From assembly GCA_019654215.1 (NCBI GenBank), contig BPDI01000005.1:1-64000 (forward strand): DNA of 64,000 nt. The letters are read 5' to 3'. The first letter of the stretch is position 1, and each line of letters starts with the position of its first letter. The translations under genes were made by a program, and so were the position numbers. Under the pieces are notes generated by a model, which ran no database searches, was not told the DNA's origin, and saw only the letters and a program-made list of their open reading frames with translations. Positions 10,877 through 58,910 of this stretch are shown here, piece after piece. The stretch comes from Gammaproteobacteria bacterium (GTDB lineage: Bacteria > Pseudomonadota > Gammaproteobacteria > Pseudomonadales > Pseudohongiellaceae).

Positions 10877-12935
10877 TTATCTTTCCGCGGAAATTGCCTG
10901 TTGCCTAATGTAATGCCTAATCGCTTCCAGTTCCTGGTCAGTCAACTCAGGATGAGCAGGCATGGCCCTTGAAATGAAAGCCCCATCTCGGACAACCGAT
11001 GCAAAGGTCTGCTGATCTAATGGGATTTGGGAAGCTCTCAAGTCTGGTGCCATTCCTGCAGCGACGGCATTTGCTCCATGACAAAAAGCGCAAAAGCCTT
11101 CCAAATACAAAGTGCTTCCAGCTTCCGCCAAATCTCCGTCTAAGGTAAATCCCGTATCAACTAACGGTGCAGGAAAGTGAGGAGGTGGTTGGGAGGGTAG
11201 CTCTAGTTCACCTCCTAAAGTAAAAGTCACCAGTCTTCGGTCATGGACACCATAAGCCCAGCCTAAAGTTATACCATCTCTATCAAATCCGGCAGCGCCA
11301 GCTCCTCCCCAGCCAACCAATACCGATAGATATTGTTTGTTGCCTATTTTGTAAGTAATTGGAGGTGCGGAAATTCCTAGCCCTAGGTCAATGTCCCAGA
11401 GCATATCTCCGGAACTTGCATTGTAAGCAACCAAGTGCCCATCAGCGGTTCCTTGGAAAACCAGATTACCGGCCGTCGTCAAGGTTCCGGCGTTGTACAT
11501 ATGCGGATAATCAACTTCCCATCTCTGTTCCTGCGACACTGGATCCCAGGCCTGCAGTGAACCGGAAATTTCAACATCTAAATCACCACTCCAGTCCACG
11601 GCAAAATTTGCTTCAAATTCTCCAGCGGCAAAGTCTCGGGCATAGGCTTGATCATCATATTCCACACCCCATCGAATGGTCGGAATATAGACTAGTCCTG
11701 TCTCTTCATTGTATGACATTGGATGCCAACTATGGGCGCCGAGAGGCCCAGGCATAATTTTGGCACTGCTGTTATTGTAGCGGGCACCTTCTATTTCTAC
11801 AGGCCTCCCTGTTGACATATCAATATGGCTAGCCCAGGTTGTTTCAACATAATTTTCCGCCGAGATGAGTTCACCATTCTCGCGATTTATGACGTAGAAA
11901 AAGCCATTTTTAGGTGCATGCATTAAAGCTTTTATTGTCGAGCCATTGATTTCTAAATCGGCCAAAACAATATCCATAGTCGAAGTGTAATCCCAAGTAT
12001 CTCCGGGAGTAGTTTGATAATGCCAGATGTATTCGCCGTCATCTGGGTCTAAAGCAACTACAGAGCTAAGAAATAAATTATCTCCTCCATCCGGGCTTCG
12101 AATAGCGGCGTTCCATGGTGATCCATTTCCGGTTCCAATATAGAGGGCATCCATTTCCGCATCGTAAGTAAATCCGTGCCAGGTGTTGCCACCGCCGCCA
12201 TGTTTCCACCATTCACCGGTTCCAGGTTTCCGCTGCCATTTCCATTGCTGAATTTTCAAAACCATTAGCCGGGTCACCAGGAACAATATAGAATTTCCAA
12301 GCTTCTTGTCCTGTTTCTGCTTCATATGCAGTAATAAAACCTCGAGCAGGGCCGTTCTCTGTTCCGCCATTGCCGATAACTACTTTGCCTTTAAAAGCCT
12401 TTGGTGTTCCCGTTATGTAAAGAGGCGCATCAATTGAAAAAGTTCGTGTTATCCATATTTCTTCGCCAGTCTTATAATCCAGAGCAAACAATCGACCGTC
12501 CCAAGTAGCTCCAAATACCTTGTCGCCATAGAAAGATAAACCTCTGTTATGGACAAATCCCACTTTCTTTCTATTTCCAACTTCTTCTGCAACACGGGGA
12601 TCATAGGTCCATATAATTTCTCCAGAAACAGCATCTACTGCGCGGACAATATTCATGGTGCCGATGAAGTATAAGATGCCATCTATCACCAAAGGAGTGG
12701 AGACTAGGCCCACGTCGTTTGGTAAATCAATAAACCACTCAACCCCAAGTTGCTGGACGTTTCCATCATCTATGTCTGTAAGAGGCGCATATCGCGTCTC
12801 ATCATGACCTCTGCCATATGCAAGCCACTGACCATCTTGGTCAACATTAGCGATATCTTCATCGTTTATCTGGGCTAAAACAGTGCCACTAATTGTCCAA
12901 TTAAAGACTATTATGAGAGAAAAAATGTATTTCAT
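10877..12935 (-). CDS. PQQ-dependent dehydrogenase with C-terminal cytochrome c domain (quinohemoprotein), frameshifted
   Basis: ORFs 12213-12935 and 10877-12370 join near 12220 to read [37 protein letters not shown]; C-terminal CAFCHGANAVAAGMAPDLR heme site. Confidence 0.9.
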
Positions 12936-13344: not shown

Positions 13345-15279
13345 ATGCGTCACAGCGTTCTAAGTATTTTGAATTATTTGATCATTATTTTCTTCTCTCT
13401 TTGCAGTTCCAATAAGCCTTTTGGCCGAAGAACTCAAAACATTTGAAGGGCACGCGTACGAGGTGGTTAGCACGCCCATGTCTTGGGTAGCGGCAGATGC
13501 ATTTGCAAAAAGCAAAGGAGGAGCACTCGTCAAAATTGATTCGTTTCAAGAAAACTTTTTTGTAAAAAATTTAATGTCTTCAACAGAAACAAGCGCAGCT
13601 GATGGTGGAGGATCAAACTACTTTTGGATGGGCGCCACTGACATCACTCAAGAGGGTGATTGGACTTGGAGTAACGGCGAAAAATTAAATGAAGCTTCAG
13701 TGTCGGGCAGACCTCTCTGGGGTAATGGTCAAGGTCATGGTGCTGGCTATAGTGAGCCAGATAATTTCAATGACATGCAAGACTGTTTAGCAATGGGCGT
13801 AACCGGCTGGCCTACAAGCAACCCCGGGGTTTTTTATGGCGCTGCTGGCCAATGGAATGATTTAAATTGCAGCAACTTACTGAGTTTTGCCATTGAATAC
13901 ACCGTAGATGCATCCTTTAGTAACAATATCCTTCATATAGACAATCTTAAAGTAGGAGAACAAACCTATTGGGCAACGTTATTCCTGGAAGAATGTGAAG
14001 CCATATGTTTCAAAATCATTGATGCGGGAGATACTAACTACCCAGTAACTAAAATATTTAGTGAGTTTTTCTGACAATGTCCTGACACTCGAAAGGGTAA
14101 GCGTTGGAGATTCAGCCTATTATGTAGAATTAGAACTAACAAATCCTTCCGATCTGATATTCCAACTTAAAGCAGGATCTCTCACTAGATCGCTAACTTA
14201 TGTTCCTGCAGATACGGATGCATGGGTTAAGGCGGAGCCGGAAGAGGTTGGCTTAAAGAGCTCAGAGATTCAGAAGGCTATCGACTACGCATTCGCCGAA
14301 GGTCAAAATACTCAAGGGCTAGTCATATTGCGGCACGGCGCTATCGTTGCAGAAAGATACGCAATCGGTTCGGATAAAGACACTATTGCGACATCATGGT
14401 CGATGGCAAAATCATTCGTTAGTGCGTTAACAGGAATTGCCATAGAGGAAGGGTTTATCTCGTCGGTTGATGTTCCAGCTGCTGACTATGTAACACAGTG
14501 GGCAGGAGATGATCGCAAGAATATCACTTTAAAAGACCTCTTGTTGATGTCATCGGGGCTCTATGAAAATGGTGATGATGGTCCGGTGATGTACGTCGGT
14601 TTGCAAGATAGCGATGGCAATTACATACAAGATAGTAACGGCGAATATCAAAAAGTAAATAACCTACAATATTCCATCAATCGAATAGTTAACCCCGATA
14701 GGGCTCGTTGGCTAGGAGCAGGCTATACCTGGAATTACTCAAATGCAGATACTCAAATAATTGGACATATCATCGAATCTGCTAGCAATAAATTCATTAA
14801 CTCATTCGCAGAGGAGTTTTTATTTTCAAAGATTGGTATCTCTGCTGATTGGTGGACTGATGGCTTTCACAACTATATGCATTATTGCTGTTTAGATATG
14901 ACGACTCGAGATTTTGCAAAATTTGGGCTGTTGTTTGCCAGAGATGGGAAAAAGGGGCTCAGAGCGAATCATTTCAGAAGATTGGGTGCTTGAATCGACC
15001 GCGCCTACGATCACCATAACAGAGTCATGGCAGATCGGTTATGGTTACCAATGGTGGCCAGATAGATCTGGTGATTGGTATTACGCTGTCGGTAGCAGAA
15101 AACAACTTATTTATGTACACCCAGGTCTTGATATTGTAGCTGTAAGGAATGGTACTTTAGAGTTGATAGGCAATACTAAGCATAGGCGTGGTGATTCATA
15201 TCACTTAACTCAATTTCCTGCTTACTGGGACAATGTAGAGTTTTTCCAGTACATAATCGACGCAGCAAAGATTAATTAA
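13345..15279 (+). CDS. Secreted C-type lectin / repeat module / serine beta-lactamase fusion protein, three frameshifts
   Basis: ORFs 13421-14074, 14061-14993 and 14914-15279 join by one-base edits at T5 14066-14070 and A5 14949-14953; signal peptide upstream in a third frame (LFAVPISLLA); lectin-like WMGATDITQEGDWTWSNG; beta-lactamase SxxK (SWSMAKSF). Confidence 0.75.
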
Positions 15280-20620: not shown

Positions 20621-20795
20621 ACCTGCTAAGCGAGCCTGAAATAGGTATAAATATAGGACGCTCAATATAATGAGATACAAAAATCTAAACAAGTTAAGAC
20701 CACAAATAATTTGTGAATGCTAATCCAGAAAATACTTCCGCAAAGCCCCGGAAATAGAATAGAGTGTGGGTTTTATCCAGTTGGAGGAATCCCTT

Positions 20796-22226
20796 ATGAA
20801 GCGCCTTGCTATCGCGTTCCTTTCAATTTTCATCCTGCTCCCTCTGAAGGGATTAGCGCAACAAGAAGAAACATATGATTACTGGCAACACCAGCGTGAA
20901 ATGGTGCACCGCGGCCAGCACGCCATATTTATGTGCAATGGCCTATTCACATCCAATAGAACACTTGATCAACTGTATGATTGGGAGTTGGAATTTTTTC
21001 GAGATCCTATTGGAAGTCCCGATGGCGGGGATTACAACGTAGATTGGGATCGGCAAGCAGTCGAGATTGGCGCGCCTGGAGCTGTACCTGTAATGCGGGC
21101 AGCATTTAGAGAAGGTATAGGCTGTGTGATTATGCCACCTGATCAGGATCTTGATGATATTGATCGCCTTCCCGAACTTACCTTGCCATATCCTCCCGGT
21201 GATGCTTCAAGAATTGCTTGGCCCGATGGCGATTTGATTGAAGATTCAACTTCGCCAGGCAATATCGATCAGGCTGCATTGCAAGCTGCTTCTAACTGGG
21301 CCTTCGATCGTCCTTCCGATGAACAGCAAACAGTTTCATTGTTAGTGGTTTATAAGGGACAAATCGTTCACGAGCGTTATGCCGATGGCTTCGACATGAC
21401 TACTCGTACTCGAACCTGGTCAACGGCAAAGAGTATTGCATCAACGCTGATTGGTATGTTGGTTGACGATGGGCGCTTAGAGTTAGATGAGCCACTGGGA
21501 TTCGATTGGCTTCCTGCTAACCGGTCTCCAGAAACTGATCCAAGAAACGAAATCACCTTGCGCAATGTTTTACACATGAGCAGTGGACTTGAAACGATTG
21601 ATAACCGCGGATTGGAGTACGCAATTGGTTCAGGCATGTCCTATTGGGCTGGTGCGAGTTCAGTAGAAGGCGCAAGAAGCCGAGGACTCATTCGTGAACC
21701 TGGTACTTACTGGGATTATGAAAACTATGACACGTTATTGGGAGTCTATGCTATGAAGTTAGCATTGGGTGGCGAACGTGAGTATGCAGAGTTTCCGCGT
21801 AAAGCTCTTCTGGACAAGATCGGTATGCGCAACACCTTAGTTTCTGCGGATAGATTCGGAGATTTTGTTCTCAGTAGCCAGGTATACACTAATGCAAGAG
21901 ACCTGGCACGTTTCGGTATGCTCTATTTACAAAACGGACTTTGGAATGGCGAACGCATTATTTCCGAAGAATGGATCGACTTCGTAAGAGAGCCAGCACC
22001 TGCGAGCGCTGAAATTGGCAACATGTATGGTGGCCAATGGTGGTTAGTGCCAGATAACAGAGACGACGTTCCTAAAGATGCTTATTCGACTTCTGGAAAC
22101 CGTGGCCAATTTACAATTGTAGTTCCAACCCACGACTTGGTAATCGTAAGACGAGGACTCGATTATGGTCGGCAAGGATTCGATCGTTGGAGTCTGACTC
22201 GAGAAGTGATCAAAGCGATAAATTAA
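20796..22226 (+). CDS. Secreted serine hydrolase, beta-lactamase (class C-like) family
   Basis: TWSTAKSIASTLIG (SxxK), YWDYENYDTLLG (YxN-like), intact 476+ aa; SD TTGGAGGA upstream. Confidence 0.87.
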   Translation: MKRLAIAFLSIFILLPLKGLAQQEETYDYWQHQREMVHRGQHAIFMCNGLFTSNRTLDQLYDWELEFFRDPIGSPDGGDYNVDWDRQAVEIGAPGAVPVMRAAFREGIGCVIMPPDQDLDDIDRLPELTLPYPPGDASRIAWPDGDLIEDSTSPGNIDQAALQAASNWAFDRPSDEQQTVSLLVVYKGQIVHERYADGFDMTTRTRTWSTAKSIASTLIGMLVDDGRLELDEPLGFDWLPANRSPETDPRNEITLRNVLHMSSGLETIDNRGLEYAIGSGMSYWAGASSVEGARSRGLIREPGTYWDYENYDTLLGVYAMKLALGGEREYAEFPRKALLDKIGMRNTLVSADRFGDFVLSSQVYTNARDLARFGMLYLQNGLWNGERIISEEWIDFVREPAPASAEIGNMYGGQWWLVPDNRDDVPKDAYSTSGNRGQFTIVVPTHDLVIVRRGLDYGRQGFDRWSLTREVIKAIN

Positions 22227-32019: not shown

Positions 32020-32078
32020 ACTGATTGAGTAAATCAAAAAGTCGTAATTTTTTATCTAATCTGCAGTTTAAATTTTTC

Positions 32079-33592
32079 ATGAACGATTCCAAGATTAAAA
32101 ATATTGTGATTCTCGGCGGAGGAACCGCGGGATGGATGGCCGCAAATCTTTTACACAAAAAATGGCAACATCTTGGAATTCAAGTCACGGTCGTTGAGTC
32201 ACCAGACATTGGAATTATCGGTGTGGGTGAAGGTTCCACTCCACTATTAAAGGTATTTTTCGATTCGCTTGATATAGAAGAATCAGAATGGATGCCGGCA
32301 TGTAACGCTACTTATAAGAATGGTATTAGTTTTGTTGATTGGTCTACGGTTGCCGGATATGAAAGCTATTTTCATCCATTTCCAACCAGTCTGGATTTTG
32401 CGACTTTTGGTTTTCTCTATAAGTATTCCACACTCAGAAGACAAGGACTTGATTTATTAGCCCATCCGAACCGCTTTTCGTTGCTGGCTAATCTAACCGA
32501 AAAGCGATTGGCGCCACTTCCAGCCGAAAGTTTCCCTTTCCATTTTCAATACGGTTATCACTTCGATTCCGTGTTGATTGGCAAATTTCTACGCGAACGC
32601 GCTAAAGAAAAAGGGGTTAATCATATTGAAGCCACTGTAGAGAGTGTTGAACAACATGACAACGGCGACATAAAGTCTTTAAAACTTAATACCGGAGAAG
32701 AATTATCAGCGGACTTCTTTGTCGACTGTTCTGGATTCGCTCAATTCTGATTCAGAAGACTTTGAAAGTTCGCTTTCTTCCATTTGCAGAAAACCTTTTT
32801 AATGATTCTGCAATTGCAGTACCTACAGAAATCGATCCAAACCTGCCTTCAGAAACTATTTCCACAGCATTGTCGAATGGTTGGGTATGGAAAATTCCTC
32901 TTACTAATCGTTTTGGCAATGGTTACGTGTACAGTTCGCAGTACACAACTCCTGATGAAGCAGAAACAGAGCTCAGAACACATTTGGGAATTCTTGAAAG
33001 CGACGCGGAAGCGCGTCACTTAAAAATGAAAGTCGGTAGAACAGAACAAACCTGGTGCAACAATTGTGTGGCAATAGGGCTTTCCCAGGGGTTCATTGAA
33101 CCATTTGAAGCCACTGCTCTGCAGTTCGTTTACTCAACTATCGATGAGTTCTCAACTGCATTCGAAGAAGGGGATTTCACTAATCAATACCAAGAAGATT
33201 TTAACGACCGCATGAATAAGAATTTTGAAGGCATTCGCGATTACATCGTCTTGCACTATAAGGCTAATTCGAGAATCGATACGCAATACTGGATCGATAA
33301 TCGAGAAAACCAGAATCTCTCAGACAACCTCAAAGAGATGCTGAATGTTTGGTATGGCATCGAAGATTTGGAAGCCGCACTGACCCGCCTCAATATTGGC
33401 CAGTATTATTCACAACGATCTTGGACCTGCTTGCTTGCCGGCGTGGGTATATTTCCGCGTCAGGAAAATTTATCAGTAGCAGATGAAGCCAATAGGCTGG
33501 CAGCGCAGTCTGACCTGGATTATGTTGATAAGTTTATAGCCGGTTGTTCTTTAAATTTTCAACCCCATGCAAGAGTGCTCGTGAGTGACTAA
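32079..33592 (+). CDS. Flavin-dependent tryptophan halogenase-family protein, frameshifted
   Basis: NIVILGGGTAGWMAANLL FAD motif; GWVWKIPL (WxWxIP halogenase motif); QGFIEPFEATALQF; frame restored near 32741 by one T giving GFASILIQKTLKVRF. Confidence 0.9.
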
Positions 33593-42394: not shown

Positions 42395-43091
42395 TATGGG
42401 ATTCAGTGAAGCCGATGTAGCCGCAATACTCCTGACACTGCGATTAGCAACAACAGTAACCATCTTGCTGTTATTTTTTGGAGCACCATTAGCGTGGTGG
42501 CTTGCGCGTACTTCATCTCGATTCAAAGGGCCAATAGGTGCGCTAATTGCACTTCCACTAGTGTTACCGCCAACAGTGCTGGGGTTTTATTTGTTGATAG
42601 CACTTGGTCCTAATGGGCCAATTGGTCAGCTCACTCAATCCCTGGGGCTAGGTACATTGGCATTCAGCTATTCCGGTCTAGTGATTGGATCAATTTTTTA
42701 TTCACTGCCATTTGTAGTGCAGCCATTGCAAAACGCTTTTGAAGCAGTCGGTGATCGACCCTTAGAAGTTGCTGCCACACTGGGTGCCGGCCCGGTAGAT
42801 CGGTTTTTCTCAATAGCACTTCCCATGGCGAAGCCTGGATTTTTCACCGCTGCCGTTCTGGGGTTCGCGCATACCGTTGGCGAATTTGGTGTAGTGTTAA
42901 TGATCGGCGGAAACATCCCTGGTGAAACACGTGTTGTGTCGGTACAGATTTATGATCATGTAGAAGCACTTGCCTATGATCAGGCCAATCAATTAGCGCT
43001 ATTAATGATTATTTTTTCCTTCCTGGTTTTACTTTCTGTCTATGGCATGCAAAAGAAATCTCACCGACAGGTATTGAGGTTTAGCCCATGA
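42387..43091 (+). CDS. modB: Molybdate ABC transporter permease
   Basis: LPLVLPPTVLGFYLLIALG; EVAATLGAGPVDRFFSIALPMAKPGFFTAAVLGFAHTVGEFGVVLMIGGNIPGETR. Confidence 0.95.
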   Translation: MIDMGFSEADVAAILLTLRLATTVTILLLFFGAPLAWWLARTSSRFKGPIGALIALPLVLPPTVLGFYLLIALGPNGPIGQLTQSLGLGTLAFSYSGLVIGSIFYSLPFVVQPLQNAFEAVGDRPLEVAATLGAGPVDRFFSIALPMAKPGFFTAAVLGFAHTVGEFGVVLMIGGNIPGETRVVSVQIYDHVEALAYDQANQLALLMIIFSFLVLLSVYGMQKKSHRQVLRFSP

Positions 43092-44198
43092 ATGTCAGCA
43101 ATCCTACAGCCAATCAAATCAGAGTGGCTATAAACCACGAGCTATCGGAACGAGGCGGGCGCGCCTTTAACTTGGAAGTAGATCTTGATCTTCCCGCCAA
43201 AGGAATAACGGCAGTGTTTGGTGAGTCCGGTTCCGGCAAGACCACTTTACTTCGGTGTATAGCAGGGTTGGAAACAAGCTCCCGAGGAGAAATTCAAGTT
43301 AGAGATGCGGTCTGGCAAAGCGAAACAGATGTTATTCCTCCTCATCAGAGACGTGTGGGCTACGTGTTCCAGGAGTCGAGTTTATTTCCCCATTTGAATG
43401 TTAAGAAGAATATCGCCTTCGGAATCTCTCGTTCTCCTTCGCTATTGGACTCACAGCGCTACGATCAGATCATCGAACTCATGGGATTAGCACCACTATT
43501 GCAACAATACCCTGACCAATTGTCGGGGGGTGAACGACAGCGCGCGGCGATAGCCAGAGCTTTAATTATTGAGCCTGACTTACTTTTAATGGATGAGCCT
43601 TTGGCTTCATTGGACATAAAGAGAAAACAGGAGATCTTGCCTTACCTGGAGTCAGTGCATGAAAAATTAGATGTACCGATAATTTATGTTACCCACTCCG
43701 TCGACGAAGTGGCGCGTCTTGCTGACTTTTCTGGTAGTGCTGCAAGAAGGCAAAGTCATCGCCAATGGAGGATTGAAAGAAGTTTTATCGGACATAGAGC
43801 TTCCACTACAACTGGGTGAGGAAACCGGTGTTGTGGTTGAAGCCGAGGTCAAGGAGCGCGACAGCGACTGGAATTTAATACGGGCGACCTTTGAGGGCGG
43901 AGAATTGTGGATTAAAGATAGCGGAGATGAAATTGGACACAATATCCGTATTCGTATACTTGCTCGGGATGTGAGCCTGGCACTTAGCGAGCATTCAGAC
44001 ACAAGTATTATTAATCGTCTACGAGTAAAAGTAGAGAAAATTCAGGATATCATTGATCAATCAATGTTGTTGGTAAGTCTTAAAGCTGGCAATAGCAATA
44101 TCATTGCCCGTTTGTCGCGCCGATCAGCTCATCACTTAAATATAAATGCAGGCATGGAAGTATGGGCGCAGATTAAAGGTGTAGCAATATTGCGTTGA
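43088..44198 (+). CDS. modC: Molybdate ABC transporter ATP-binding protein, frameshifted
   Basis: Walker A GESGSGKTT, LSGGERQR signature, Walker B LLLMDEP; C-terminal TOBE part in ORF 43686-44198; joined by T4 to T3 at 43727-43730. Confidence 0.94.
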
Positions 44199-47832: not shown

Positions 47833-48898
47833 TTATCTCATTAAAGCCAGGCAATCGAGAAGTTGTTCCATATCAGCATCGTCACCAATGGTTATGCGCA
47901 AGTGGTTTTCTAATCCTAGAGCCTGAGCTTGGTCGCGCAAGATGATTCCATGGTCGGAAAGATAGTCGAAAGTTTTTTTGCTATCTGCAAACTTCACCAA
48001 TAGAAAATTGGTTACGCTGGGATAAATTTTTTCGACAAATGGCAATTCATTTAATTTCTTTTTGACAGATTTTTTAGTGGATAATATTCGATCCCGCTGT
48101 GTTTCCATAAATGATACGCCTATATCACTGAGGGCGTTTAACGCGATGCGAGCACTTGGATCCGGAATAGGGTAGGGAGCGATAAGCTTTGATAGCAATT
48201 CGATAACATCAGGCTGCGCTAACACAAAACCGATGCGAACCGGGTGCGAGACTAAATGCCTTGGACAGGGTTCGTAATATAACGAGGTTTGGTACTTTGT
48301 TGATATCCAGGGCGAACGACTCATTCGGCGTAAACTCAATATAAGCCTCATCGATTACAACAAAGGCTTCATCTTTAAAATGATCGGCGATGGAAACGAC
48401 ATCGCTTCTTTTTAAAAGATTTCCGGTTGGGTTATTTGGATGGCAAAGGAAAACAAGTTTTGGGTTTTTCTTAATCGATTTAAAACTATTGAGATCTAGA
48501 CTAAATTCCGGCGCAATTAGCGGCACATTTTGAATCTCGACCTGGTGAGCCTCAGCAATAAACCCATACATCGCGTAAGTTGGAGGACTAATTACGATAC
48601 TGTCCTGTTTAGGTTCACAAAAAGCACGAATCAGTAAATCGATACCTTCATCGGCCCCTCGGGTGGTAAGAACATTGTCTGATTGGGTGTGTGCGTAGAG
48701 GCCATATTTTGTCACTAAATCGCCAGGCAAAAAATCTGGATAGCGTTGCCAGGTTTCTTTCTCGGGCATTTCATAGGCTGGGTAGGGAGATTCATTAGCA
48801 TTGAGATAACTGTTGCCAATGCCACCGATTCTGCGCGCCGATTGATAGGGGATGAGGTCCTTGATTTGCCGTGCCGCAAGTTTATCCGCTAAACTCAT
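47833..48898 (-). CDS. hisC: Histidinol-phosphate aminotransferase (class I/II), frameshifted
   Basis: GIGNSYLNANESPYP; FLCHPNNPTGNLL; VVIDEAYIEF; ILRTLSKAFSLA; ORFs 48209-48898 and 47833-48351. Confidence 0.88.
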
Positions 48899-53850: not shown

Positions 53851-55200
53851 TTAATCTTGGCCTGCTAGTGAACGCTGCTCACTTTCACGGCGCTCAGCAA
53901 CTAGCTTTTCATAACCCTCTTGATCGAGATGGGTGATTGCTAACCACGCGTGAGTCATTTCATCACCAGTGCGGCTGCCACCATATACCCACTGATCAGG
54001 ATCCGGATTGTTAGGATTATCGGCAGTGTTGTCGTACCACTGCTTCAATACTAGAACTGCTCCTGCTGGAATCAATGGAGCAACATCTGGCTCATAGATA
54101 TGGCTGTGATGCCAAGTCGCACTCCAGTTTGAAACTTGGCTGATCGCTTCTGTACGTCCAGTTTCCGGATAGAAGATTTCCAGCGAGGCCGCATTCATTC
54201 GAAGGTGGCCATGAGGCTGGAAGCTATCAAGACGAATAGGGTGATCGAATGAATGAAAACCCTGAGTCATTTGATAACCGTTAGGAGGAATCACTAGGTC
54301 ATCCTGCTCTTCGATTCGATAAAGAGCGAGGTCTTGCTTGTAGATATTTCCGCCGTCTTCATAACCTTCGTCGTGGAACCAAAGGCCAATCTCAACAACG
54401 TTATCTTCAATCATCTCGCCTTGTGCAGTTGCACCAACACCCCCTGGATACATGTGGATGCTCCATTGGATTTGTGCGCCGGCTGGAATGGTTCGGCAAA
54501 CACCTTCAGGAACCATTTCGCCCCATTTACCCATTGCGTATTCGGTCAGCATGCCTTCCCTTTGTAATTCACCTTCTTCGTCTTCCATCCATACAGAAGA
54601 GTTGGCGTGGTGAACAACAGCAGCGGCATCACCTCGAGGCTTTACTTGAACCGCCTTAATACAGCGATCTGCAATAATACCTGGATCAACAAACTCATTG
54701 CTCCACAGGTCATTGCCGCTTGCAGGAATATCGTAGGAGGTAGAAGGAACGATTAAATCTGGCTGGCCTAACTGCGCAGCAAAGTTCCACTCTCTTGGAT
54801 CTCTTAACTGATAAGGAGGAGGTGAACTATCTGGTTCACCTAATGGCGCACCTTGCTCAACCCAGGCAACTATCTGCTCGATCTCTTGCTGCTCCAAGCG
54901 CCAGTCACCGATTAAATTCTGAATGCCAATGCCTTCGTCATAAGCATATGGAGGCATTTCTTTGTTCGCTACTTTATAGGAAATCAAAGGTGCCCAAGGA
55001 CGAACCTGGTCATAGGTTTCGAATTGCATAGGTCCAATACCACCTTCCTGATGACATACGACGCAATTCTCATTGATGATTTGCCCGATCTGATCATTGT
55101 AAGTCAGTTCATGAGCTTCATCTTGAGCATGAGCCTGAATACCTAGTAGGGCGATTATTAAAACAAAAAGACTGCTAGCAATTCTTCCAATAGCTCTCAT
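53851..55200 (-). CDS. Secreted cytochrome c + copper type II ascorbate-dependent (PHM-like) monooxygenase protein, copy C
   Basis: CVVCHQEGGIGPMQF; VVHHANSSVW; IHMYPGGVGATAQGE; QPHGHLRMNAASLEIFYPETGRTE; WYDNTADNPNNPDPDQWVYGGSRTGDEMTHAW. Confidence 0.88.
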   Translation of the reverse strand: MRAIGRIASSLFVLIIALLGIQAHAQDEAHELTYNDQIGQIINENCVVCHQEGGIGPMQFETYDQVRPWAPLISYKVANKEMPPYAYDEGIGIQNLIGDWRLEQQEIEQIVAWVEQGAPLGEPDSSPPPYQLRDPREWNFAAQLGQPDLIVPSTSYDIPASGNDLWSNEFVDPGIIADRCIKAVQVKPRGDAAAVVHHANSSVWMEDEEGELQREGMLTEYAMGKWGEMVPEGVCRTIPAGAQIQWSIHMYPGGVGATAQGEMIEDNVVEIGLWFHDEGYEDGGNIYKQDLALYRIEEQDDLVIPPNGYQMTQGFHSFDHPIRLDSFQPHGHLRMNAASLEIFYPETGRTEAISQVSNWSATWHHSHIYEPDVAPLIPAGAVLVLKQWYDNTADNPNNPDPDQWVYGGSRTGDEMTHAWLAITHLDQEGYEKLVAERRESEQRSLAGQD

Positions 55201-55568
55201 ATTTTTCTCCTTTGCCGTTCTGGCTGGGCCCCAGATCCTGGAGCAGTCTTACTGTGGGTTTCGCAGCAGGGATGCGTTTTTCAAACAAGGTTTAAGTTTA
55301 CCTTTTTAAATTGTAGGTAAAAAGAGGGGCCGGTGCCATCAATACACCTCATTTTAGGCGCTAAGGTATAAAAAAGGCCGTGAGAATTGGCTCTCCGTGA
55401 GTTTTACAAAATGTATTAGTGTTATCCTAAATGTAATTGCGTCGGAATTACATTTGGATACTCAAAGCTGGGAGCATCTGAGGTTAAGGGGGGGCTCTTT
55501 TCTCCTGCCCTAGGAACAGGAGGAAAAGCGGACATCTGTGAGATAGAAAGAAGCGCATAACCAAAGAA

Positions 55569-55600
55569 AAAGGCTGGGAGATCGAAATCTGCCAGCCTTT
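55569..55600 (-). terminator. Intrinsic terminator of copy B
   Basis: Minus strand AAAGGCTGG-C-AGAT-TTCG-ATCT-C-CCAGCCTTT followed by TTCTTT; UUCG tetraloop. Confidence 0.75.
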
Positions 55601-55676
55601 CACCTTTATGTTCTTCGCGCATTTCTGTTCTAGAAATGCGCTCGTTCTGAAGAAAACCTATTGTGCATCCCTGTGA

Positions 55677-57031
55677 TTAATCTTGTCCCGCTACTGATCG
55701 TTGTTCTCTTTCTTGGCGCTCAGCAACTATCTTTTCATAACCCTCGTCGTCGAGGTGAGTTACAGCAATCCAGGCGTGGGACATTTCATCACCAGTTCTG
55801 CTGCCTTCATAAACCCATTGTTCTGGATCAGGGTTATTTGGATTATTAGCTGTGTTGTCGTACCACTGCTTGATCACAAGTACTGCGCCAGTTGGAACTA
55901 ACGGAGCAAGATCTGCATCATAAATGTGGCTGTGGTGCCAGGTAGCACTCCAGTTAGAGATCTGACTTATTGCTTCAGTGCGACCAGTTTCTGGATAGAA
56001 AATTTCCAGAGATGCTGCGTTCATGCGCAGGTGACCATGTGGCTGGAAGCTATCGATTCGAACTGGGTGATCAAAAGAGTGAAAGCCCTGAGTCATTGTG
56101 TAACCGTTTGGAGGAACGATTAGCATATTGTTCTCGTAACCTTCACGCATTGGATAAGCTTTTAGGTCTTGAGTGTAAGGCTCATTAGTTTGCTCGAAGT
56201 TGTCGTCGTGGAGCCAGATACCCATCTCAACTACGTTGTCTTTAACGGCCTGACCTTGCGCTGTTGCGCCAACGCCACCTGGATACATATGAATGTCCCA
56301 GAAGATTCTAGAATTAGCTGGCATTTGACGGCAAACCTCTTCAGGAATTAATTCACCCCACTTGCCCATCGCATACTCAGTTAGTTGACTGAAATCCTCA
56401 TACTCGCCAGTTTCTTCGTTAAGTACTTCGATAGAAGGATTGGCGTGGTGAACACAGCGCGAGCATCTCCACGAGGCTTAACTTGCATGGCACGAATACA
56501 CTTACCTTCAGTTAGACCAGTTTCCACGTAGTGCTTGTGCCATAGGTCATTACCACCGGCCGGAATATCTATAGGAATAGAAGCGATAACCAGACTCGGC
56601 TCACCAAATTCTTCTTCGAAATTCCAGGCTTCTAAATCAGGCAAGTCTACAAGAGGAGGAGTGATGTCAGCTGGTCCAATTGGTGATCCATTGTTTACCC
56701 ACTGAGTAATGGCATCGATCTCTTCCTGGGCAAGGCGCCAGTCACCTTCAAGGTCCTGGATACCAATGCCATGATCGTAGGCATAAGGAGGCATTTCCCG
56801 GTTAGCTACCTTCAGTTGAATTAATGGTGCCCAAGGACGAACTTGGTCGTAGTTCTCAAATTGCATGGGACCAATGCCGCCTTCGCGGTGGCAGACCACG
56901 CAATTTTCGTTAATGATTTGCGCCACATGAGTGTTGTAAGTGACCTCATCGTCTTGGGCTTGAACGCTAGAGAAGCCCAAGACTAAAAGGGCTGCGCTCA
57001 TAAAGCCTAGAACTTGTCGCATCGATTTCAT
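55677..57031 (-). CDS. Cytochrome c + PHM-like monooxygenase protein, copy B, frameshifted
   Basis: ORFs 55677-56369 and 56381-57031; one lost base near 56450-56456 sits in the VVHHAN codons; CVVCHREGGIGPMQF; QPHGHLRMNAASLEIFYPETGRTE; TGDEMSHAW. Confidence 0.87.
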
Positions 57032-57296
57032 TGTTCTATTCCTCTTTACAGGGATTGAATTGGACCAATATTACCGCTTTTTGGCATTCACTAGGAACGG
57101 AAAATCTAAATAAATTGTAATTATTAAGAATGGAAAAAGCCGGTAGAAAGAGATTTTACTAAGCGTAATCTCACTAGTGAACCAGCAGCTAAACTGCTGG
57201 GAGTGTAAGATTTAAAGGAGCTCTTTGTAATAAAAAGCGGTGATCTGAACAAATCCCAAAAATATTGAGTATCTGCAATTTATATTTCTAAAAGGC

Positions 57297-57333
57297 GTAA
57301 AAAAAGACCAGCAGAGTTGCCTTTGCTGGTCTT
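57297..57333 (-). terminator. Intrinsic terminator of copy A
   Basis: Minus strand AAGACCAGCA-AAGGCAACTC-TGCTGGTCTT followed by T-rich tract. Confidence 0.8.
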
Positions 57334-57372
57334 CTTCGAAACTAGTGCTAGTTAGTTTTTCTTTGGAAAAAA

Positions 57373-58720
57373 CTAGTCTTGTCCAGCCAAGCTTCTTGCT
57401 TCTCTAGCTTCGCGCTCTTCAACGACCTTCGCGAAACCTTCTTCATCGAAGTGAGTGACAGCAATCCAAGCGTGAGACATTTCGTCTCCAGTGCGGCTAC
57501 CGCCATATACCCACTGATCAGGGTCAGGGTTATTTATATTGTTTGCTGTGTTGTCGTACCACTGCTTGATAACCAATACCGCTCCCGTTGGAATTAGCGG
57601 GGCTAGGTCTTCATCATAAATGTGGCTGTGGTGCCAAGTAGCGCTCCAGTTGGAGATTTGGCTGATCTGCTCAGTGCGCCCGGTTTCTGGGTAGAAAATT
57701 TCCAGAGAAGCAGCGTTCATGCGCAGGTGGCCATGAGGTTGGAAGCTATCAATGCGCACTGGGTGATCGAAAGAGTGGAAACCCTGAGTCATAGCATAAC
57801 CGTTAGGTGGAACAATCAGTTCGCCATTCTCATAACCTTCACGCAATCCGTAAAGACGAAGGTCTTGGCGATAAGGGCTTTCCGCAACTTCGTACTCTTC
57901 ATCATGGAACCAGATTCCCATTTCAACCACGTTATCAGTAATTGCTTCCCCTTGTGCAGTAGCGCCAACGCCACCAGGGAATAGGTGGATGTCCCAGTAT
58001 ATGCGCGAGTCACCTGGCATTTCCCGGCAGACACCTTCTGGCATCAACTCACCCCATTTACCCATAGCGTATTCAGTTAACTGACTGAAACGGTCGTAGT
58101 CACCAGTTTCTTCGTTATAAACTTCCAGTGTCGGATTAGAGTGATGAACAACCGCACGCGCATCGTCGCGGGGTTTAACTTGCATTGCTTTAATGCAGCG
58201 CTTTTCTGTAAGACCAGTTGGAACATGGTGCTTGTGCCACATGTCATTTCCGCCAGCAGGTACATCGATTGGCATCGATGCAATAACTAAATCCGGCTCA
58301 CCAAGCTTTTGGTTCGAAGTTCCAGGCATCAAGGTCTGGAAGGATTGGAGCTGGCGGAACAATATCCACAGGCCCTAGGGGCGAACCGTTATTAACCCAT
58401 TGGGTAATAGTATCTATCTCTTCCTGGGCCAGGCGCCAATCGCCTTTGAGATCCTGAATACCAATACCGTGGTCATAGGCATACGGAGGCATTTCACGGC
58501 TAGCTACCTTCAGTTGAATTAATGGTGCCCATGGGCGCACTTGGTCATAGTTCTCAAATTGCATTGGGCCAATGCCGCCCTCACGGTGGCAGACCACGCA
58601 ATTTTCGTTAATGATTTGTCCAACGTGCTCGTTATAAGTAATTTCTGCATCCTGAGCAAGAACCCCCGTGGATAGGGCGATCGCGCCAATTCCGAATGCA
58701 ATTTTTTGCACTAATTTCAT
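57373..58720 (-). CDS. Cytochrome c + PHM-like monooxygenase protein, copy A, frameshifted
   Basis: ORFs 57373-58362 and 58298-58828 join if T4 at 58307-58310 is T3 (WNFEPKLGEPDLVIAS); CVVCHREGGIGPMQF; AVVHHSNPT; QPHGHLRMNAASLEIFYPETGRTE; TGDEMSHAW. Confidence 0.88.
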
Positions 58721-58910
58721 GCTCTTCTCCTCAATTAGAGAGTAATGGGCAAACAACTGAAAAATGATAATTTTGAGAGGTGAAAAAGTCCACCAAATAC
58801 CTATCATTTCATCGATTCTTTGCAACAAATTGAAACAATCGGAATGCCTAAAAATACTAGCCTTGACGATTAATACAGTAGTTTATCTGCAGTTTTCGGT
58901 TACCCAAACA

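Follow-up and report, generated by a model that had tools for sequence, protein, structure and literature searches.

A C-type lectin domain fused to a beta-lactamase-family serine hydrolase in a genus of Pseudohongiellaceae

Serine hydrolases of the PF00144 superfamily are abundant, and their natural substrates are rarely known; D-Ala carboxypeptidases are among them. The C-type lectin fold does not always bind sugar: it may have lost that ability, or have protein or ice as its ligand. Domains of the wider family often lack one of the two disulfides. Enzymes that combine a carbohydrate-binding module (CBM) with an esterase exist in polysaccharide degraders. The described systems that come closest to the locus reported here are, on the lectin side, DC-SIGN, langerin and the lectins of bivalves and, on the enzyme side, family VIII carboxylesterases and NylB-type hydrolases. 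Among bivalve C-type lectins, those with EPD are mannose binders, one of them accepting galactose as well, mostly with Ca2+ (PMC12842671). The third motif of family VIII carboxylesterases is WGG or Hxx (PMC7092541), and that of NylB is the Gly-led GIGI (PMC12073871). A literature search for a lectin plus hydrolase architecture returned nothing relevant.

Gene anatomy and reading frames

We analysed a 64,000-nucleotide stretch from the genome of an uncultivated gammaproteobacterium of the family Pseudohongiellaceae (GCA_019654215.1, contig BPDI01000005.1, positions 1 to 64,000; hereafter the window). Three overlapping ORF pieces are present at 13382/13421-14074, 14061-14993 and 14914-15279, and we confirmed that positions 13345-15279 are a single gene spread over three frames. 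The hydrolase runs on into the third piece, which aligns with the C-terminal end of an intact relative. A signal peptide is followed by Lectin_C, two modules of ~43 aa and a beta-lactamase/family VIII-type serine hydrolase domain, with the following features (counts refer to intact fusions in related genomes):

13345..13432, + strand: start codon and predicted Sec-type signal peptide, with a frame break at ~13388 (sequence; intact relative)
13433..13906, + strand: C-type lectin domain (Lectin_C, PF00059; Pfam E=1.2e-13, own-genome search E=9.8e-14)
13754..13762, + strand: EPD, putative Ca2+/sugar-site motif (E and D invariant in 18/18)
13853..13861, + strand: WND, putative Ca2+ site-2 motif (W and N invariant; D in 17/18)
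13907..14035, + strand: module copy 1, ~43 aa, without a Pfam name (hhalign against copy 2; the module model matches 13907-14071)
14052..14201, + strand: module copy 2, with a frame break at ~14066 at its start (hhalign against copy 1; module model)
14223..15276, + strand: beta-lactamase/family VIII-like (NylB-like) serine hydrolase domain, with a frame break at ~14946 (PF00144)
14400..14411, + strand: SxxK (SMAK), with Ser as predicted nucleophile and Lys as predicted general base (both invariant in 18/18)
14736..14744, + strand: YxN motif (YSN; Y and N invariant in 18/18)
15091..15099, + strand: third motif position (GSR, with invariant Gly and no KTG, WGG or HxG; fusions and alignment with GSYGQ of 4gb7)

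A scan of one genome per species yielded a single relative: the gammaproteobacterial MAG JAPPOG010000011.1 encodes the entire protein in one intact ORF of 642 aa (L002:278-2206). The aligned protein starts with MRLCVLSILNNLIISSLFFAVPVNLLA, a predicted signal peptide, and the hydrolase piece of the window is 91% identical to it. At the nucleotide level the two genes are 87% identical, and the alignment revealed one-base length differences at ~13388, ~14066 and ~14946. The original prediction had put the breaks down to single-base changes in homopolymers. Their single-base nature and approximate positions held up, and the two later breaks lie within or next to short homopolymers, but the first falls in a T/C-rich stretch.

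We considered whether the family is genuine and the window copy a recent true pseudogene, with three frameshifts in this strain. The deposited sequence does contain stops, and among the 19 copies the window's is the only broken one. However, a codon-by-codon comparison with the intact relative gave a dS of 0.49, a dN of 0.07 and a dN/dS of 0.14 along the gene, showing that the gene is under purifying selection and the protein is kept by selection. Unrelated conserved genes of the window are similarly split, namely those for an aminotransferase (47833-48898), a tryptophan halogenase (32025-33592) and a ModC-like ABC ATPase with a TOBE domain (43088-44198). Because of the low dN/dS and these split genes, we favour sequencing error over a pseudogene; the latter is improbable also in view of the breaks being single-base length differences, two of them at short homopolymers. 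The three-ORF split most likely results from an indel error in sequencing or assembly. The assembly itself is 72.9% complete, in 71 contigs.

Other parts of the window deserve mention. A PQQ dehydrogenase gene (10877-12935) has frame breaks as well, and the frame-split conserved genes at several sites point to indel errors throughout the assembly. At 53851-58828 three similar genes stand in tandem and appear to be recent duplicates; all three have a haem-like CVVCHxEGG motif, and two are frame-split.

Lectin and hydrolase domains

The lectin domain in the first piece scored 52.1 bits against a curated Lectin_C cut-off of 22.6. Along with the E and D of EPD and the W and N of WND, the Gln that follows EPD and one Cys pair are invariant in 18/18 fusions. 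The domain resembles DC-SIGN, langerin and the bivalve lectins in its Lectin_C match, its EPD and WND motifs and its one conserved Cys pair. Unlike them, it is bacterial, is fused to a hydrolase and has a long insert between EPD and WND; of the canonical two disulfides, the inner Cys pair alone is invariant and the outer pair is absent. A single-sequence structure prediction of the intact relative had a pLDDT of 35 and was not used.

Sugar binding is often lost in C-type lectin folds, and the Asp of WND is missing from one fusion (L030/L048). It is conceivable, then, that the lectin is a protein-protein, ice-binding or structural domain, and that the substrate of the enzyme, as with a DD-peptidase, lies in the periplasm or the cell wall; the D-Ala carboxypeptidases of the hydrolase superfamily would fit such a role. 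The EPD/Q/WN set, however, is otherwise invariant among members that are about 50% identical, a pattern not easily accounted for unless there is a Ca2+ site, and we regard this alternative as unlikely, though worth keeping in mind.

The beta-lactamase fold with SWSMAKS that was originally proposed was borne out: PF00144 (curated cut-off 27) matched the second piece with 49.3 bits (E=5e-13), with SxxK at 14400-14411, and the intact relative with 64.1 bits (E=1.7e-17). All 18 fusions keep the catalytic Ser and Lys (SxxK), the Tyr and Asn (YxN) and the leading Gly of the third motif. The closest solved structures are Lsa45 (8dc1), a class C-related serine hydrolase (8rlj) and 6-aminohexanoate-dimer hydrolase (4gb7); the last matched the family profile with E=6e-21 and is homologous along the whole domain. 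SxxK and the catalytic Tyr are shared with the NylB type (4gb7, 1wyb) and with 8rlj, whose hydrolase domains are homologous to that of the fusion. Like NylB, the fusion has a Gly-led third motif and not KTG, and in this, as in the homology along the domain, it agrees with the NylB type. The NylB-type enzymes and 8rlj are stand-alone proteins of ~390-420 aa, whereas in the fusion the lectin and the double module precede the enzyme. Family VIII carboxylesterases (EstB, EstM2) likewise have the PF00144 fold, SxxK and Tyr, but in the fusion GSR stands in place of their WGG or Hxx (PMC7092541).

Could the protein be a true beta-lactamase that confers antibiotic resistance? It has the SxxK and YxN motifs, and beta-lactam hydrolysis is known for a few esterases of family VIII (PMC7092541). 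However, GSR replaces the KTG third motif of class C enzymes, the NCBIfam class C models scored 11-15 bits against cut-offs of 415-850, and the closest solved relatives are of the esterase/amidase type. We rejected this identity on the missing KTG and the low class C scores, and consider it extremely improbable.

The duplicated module and the origin of the fusion

The two copies of the short module, as had been claimed, are related to each other (hhalign of copy 1 against copy 2, 97.2% probability, E=3e-11), and no Pfam family covers them. A profile of the paired module matched in 66 of the 137 genomes of the family. There it accompanies leucine-rich repeats, NHL or SBBP propellers, sortilin/BNR repeats, PSCyt3, YHYH or a hydrolase, and it sits either N- or C-terminally in these proteins. 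Judging from sequence, secreted proteins carry the module as a mobile accessory. The duplicated ~43-aa module (window 13907-14201 and L110-L144) is a candidate new domain family.

A domain search found Lectin_C in 22/84 genomes of the genus. The intact fusion, 642-686 aa long and with the lectin-module-hydrolase order, is present in 18 of the 84, the window's broken copy excluded; one of the 18 (L050) is identical in sequence to L002. A search of relatives gave full-length matches to the intact protein in eight further species, at 51-56% identity. The original prediction of one protein running from signal peptide through lectin and two modules to hydrolase would have been contradicted by separate lectin and hydrolase genes; in 18 species of the genus, both domains lie in a single open frame. 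With a lectin-module profile we detected no fusion in a sample of 392 genomes of the order, nor in one of 399 genomes of the phylum. Lectin_C occurred in 10 of 369 genomes sampled from the class, including the window's own, and the other nine lacked the hydrolase on the fetched stretch. No plasmid record covered at least 80% of the fusion. The architecture is thus restricted to the genus within the order, class and phylum samples, which are samples and not censuses. It had been described as not a common one, in agreement with the lack of any fusion in the sampled genomes outside the genus.

A tree built from 63 hydrolase domains placed those of the fusions in one clade (support 100/99), and the simplest reading is therefore that the fusion arose once. 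We also considered an origin from a module plus hydrolase ancestor. Such a protein, in which the module is joined to a serine hydrolase and the lectin is absent, is encoded at L126:1215-2663 (- strand), but its hydrolase belongs to a distant clade; because of this distance, we take it as an independent combination of module and hydrolase, and rejected the ancestor. A second PF00144 serine hydrolase without a lectin lies in the window 5.5 kb downstream of the fusion gene (20766-22226), and it too falls in a different, distant clade. The gene neighbourhoods differ among most carriers and gave no operon logic or substrate hint; in one sub-clade an MFS transporter adjoins the fusion gene.

The lectin subtype is also found, at ~50% identity, on 1079-residue and 421-residue proteins of the genus. 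The 1079-residue protein (L031:81-3320, - strand, and L055) has a weak match to reprolysin-like metallopeptidases and carries, besides the fusion's lectin subtype, bacterial Ig and PKD domains. The presence of the subtype on a putative metalloprotease and on the 421-aa protein fits what would be expected of an exchangeable recognition unit.

Proposed action of the fusion protein

From the conserved Ca2+-site and catalytic residues we infer that the lectin targets the hydrolase. The signal peptide would export the protein, and the C-type lectin domain would bind a glycan through Ca2+ at the EPD/Q/WND site. The double module may serve as a stiff, beta-rich spacer or for docking. Hydrolysis of an ester or amide bond, on or near the bound glycan, would fall to the C-terminal Ser-Lys-Tyr domain, possibly with the chemistry of a family VIII esterase or a NylB-like amidase. 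We hold it to be probable, on balance, that the gene encodes an exported protein of ~640 residues in which a Ca2+-dependent glycan-binding lectin keeps a Ser-Lys-Tyr esterase/amidase near its substrate, and that the split in the window is an indel error. The original prediction was right on the architecture, and probably also on the cause of the split and on the general logic of the protein.

A more specific version can be put forward only tentatively: the lectin may recognise one particular glycan, such as an algal or host polysaccharide bearing acyl groups, from which the NylB/family VIII-like enzyme may in turn strip acyl or amide groups. CBM-esterase enzymes share this design, with a sugar-binding domain that keeps an esterase on a polysaccharide, but both their lectin fold and their hydrolase fold differ from those of the fusion.

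What is new here is a genus-restricted domain architecture built of known domains, not a new kind of system. The conserved fused lectin offers a handle on the enzyme, as the surface that the enzyme targets might be identified by probing a glycan array with the lectin domain; if lectin and enzyme do act on the same glycan, lectin specificity would point directly to the hydrolase substrate. The fusion shows secreted bacterial enzymes making use of C-type lectin domains as exchangeable units of recognition, and its study brought to light an unnamed module that is widespread among secreted proteins of the family.
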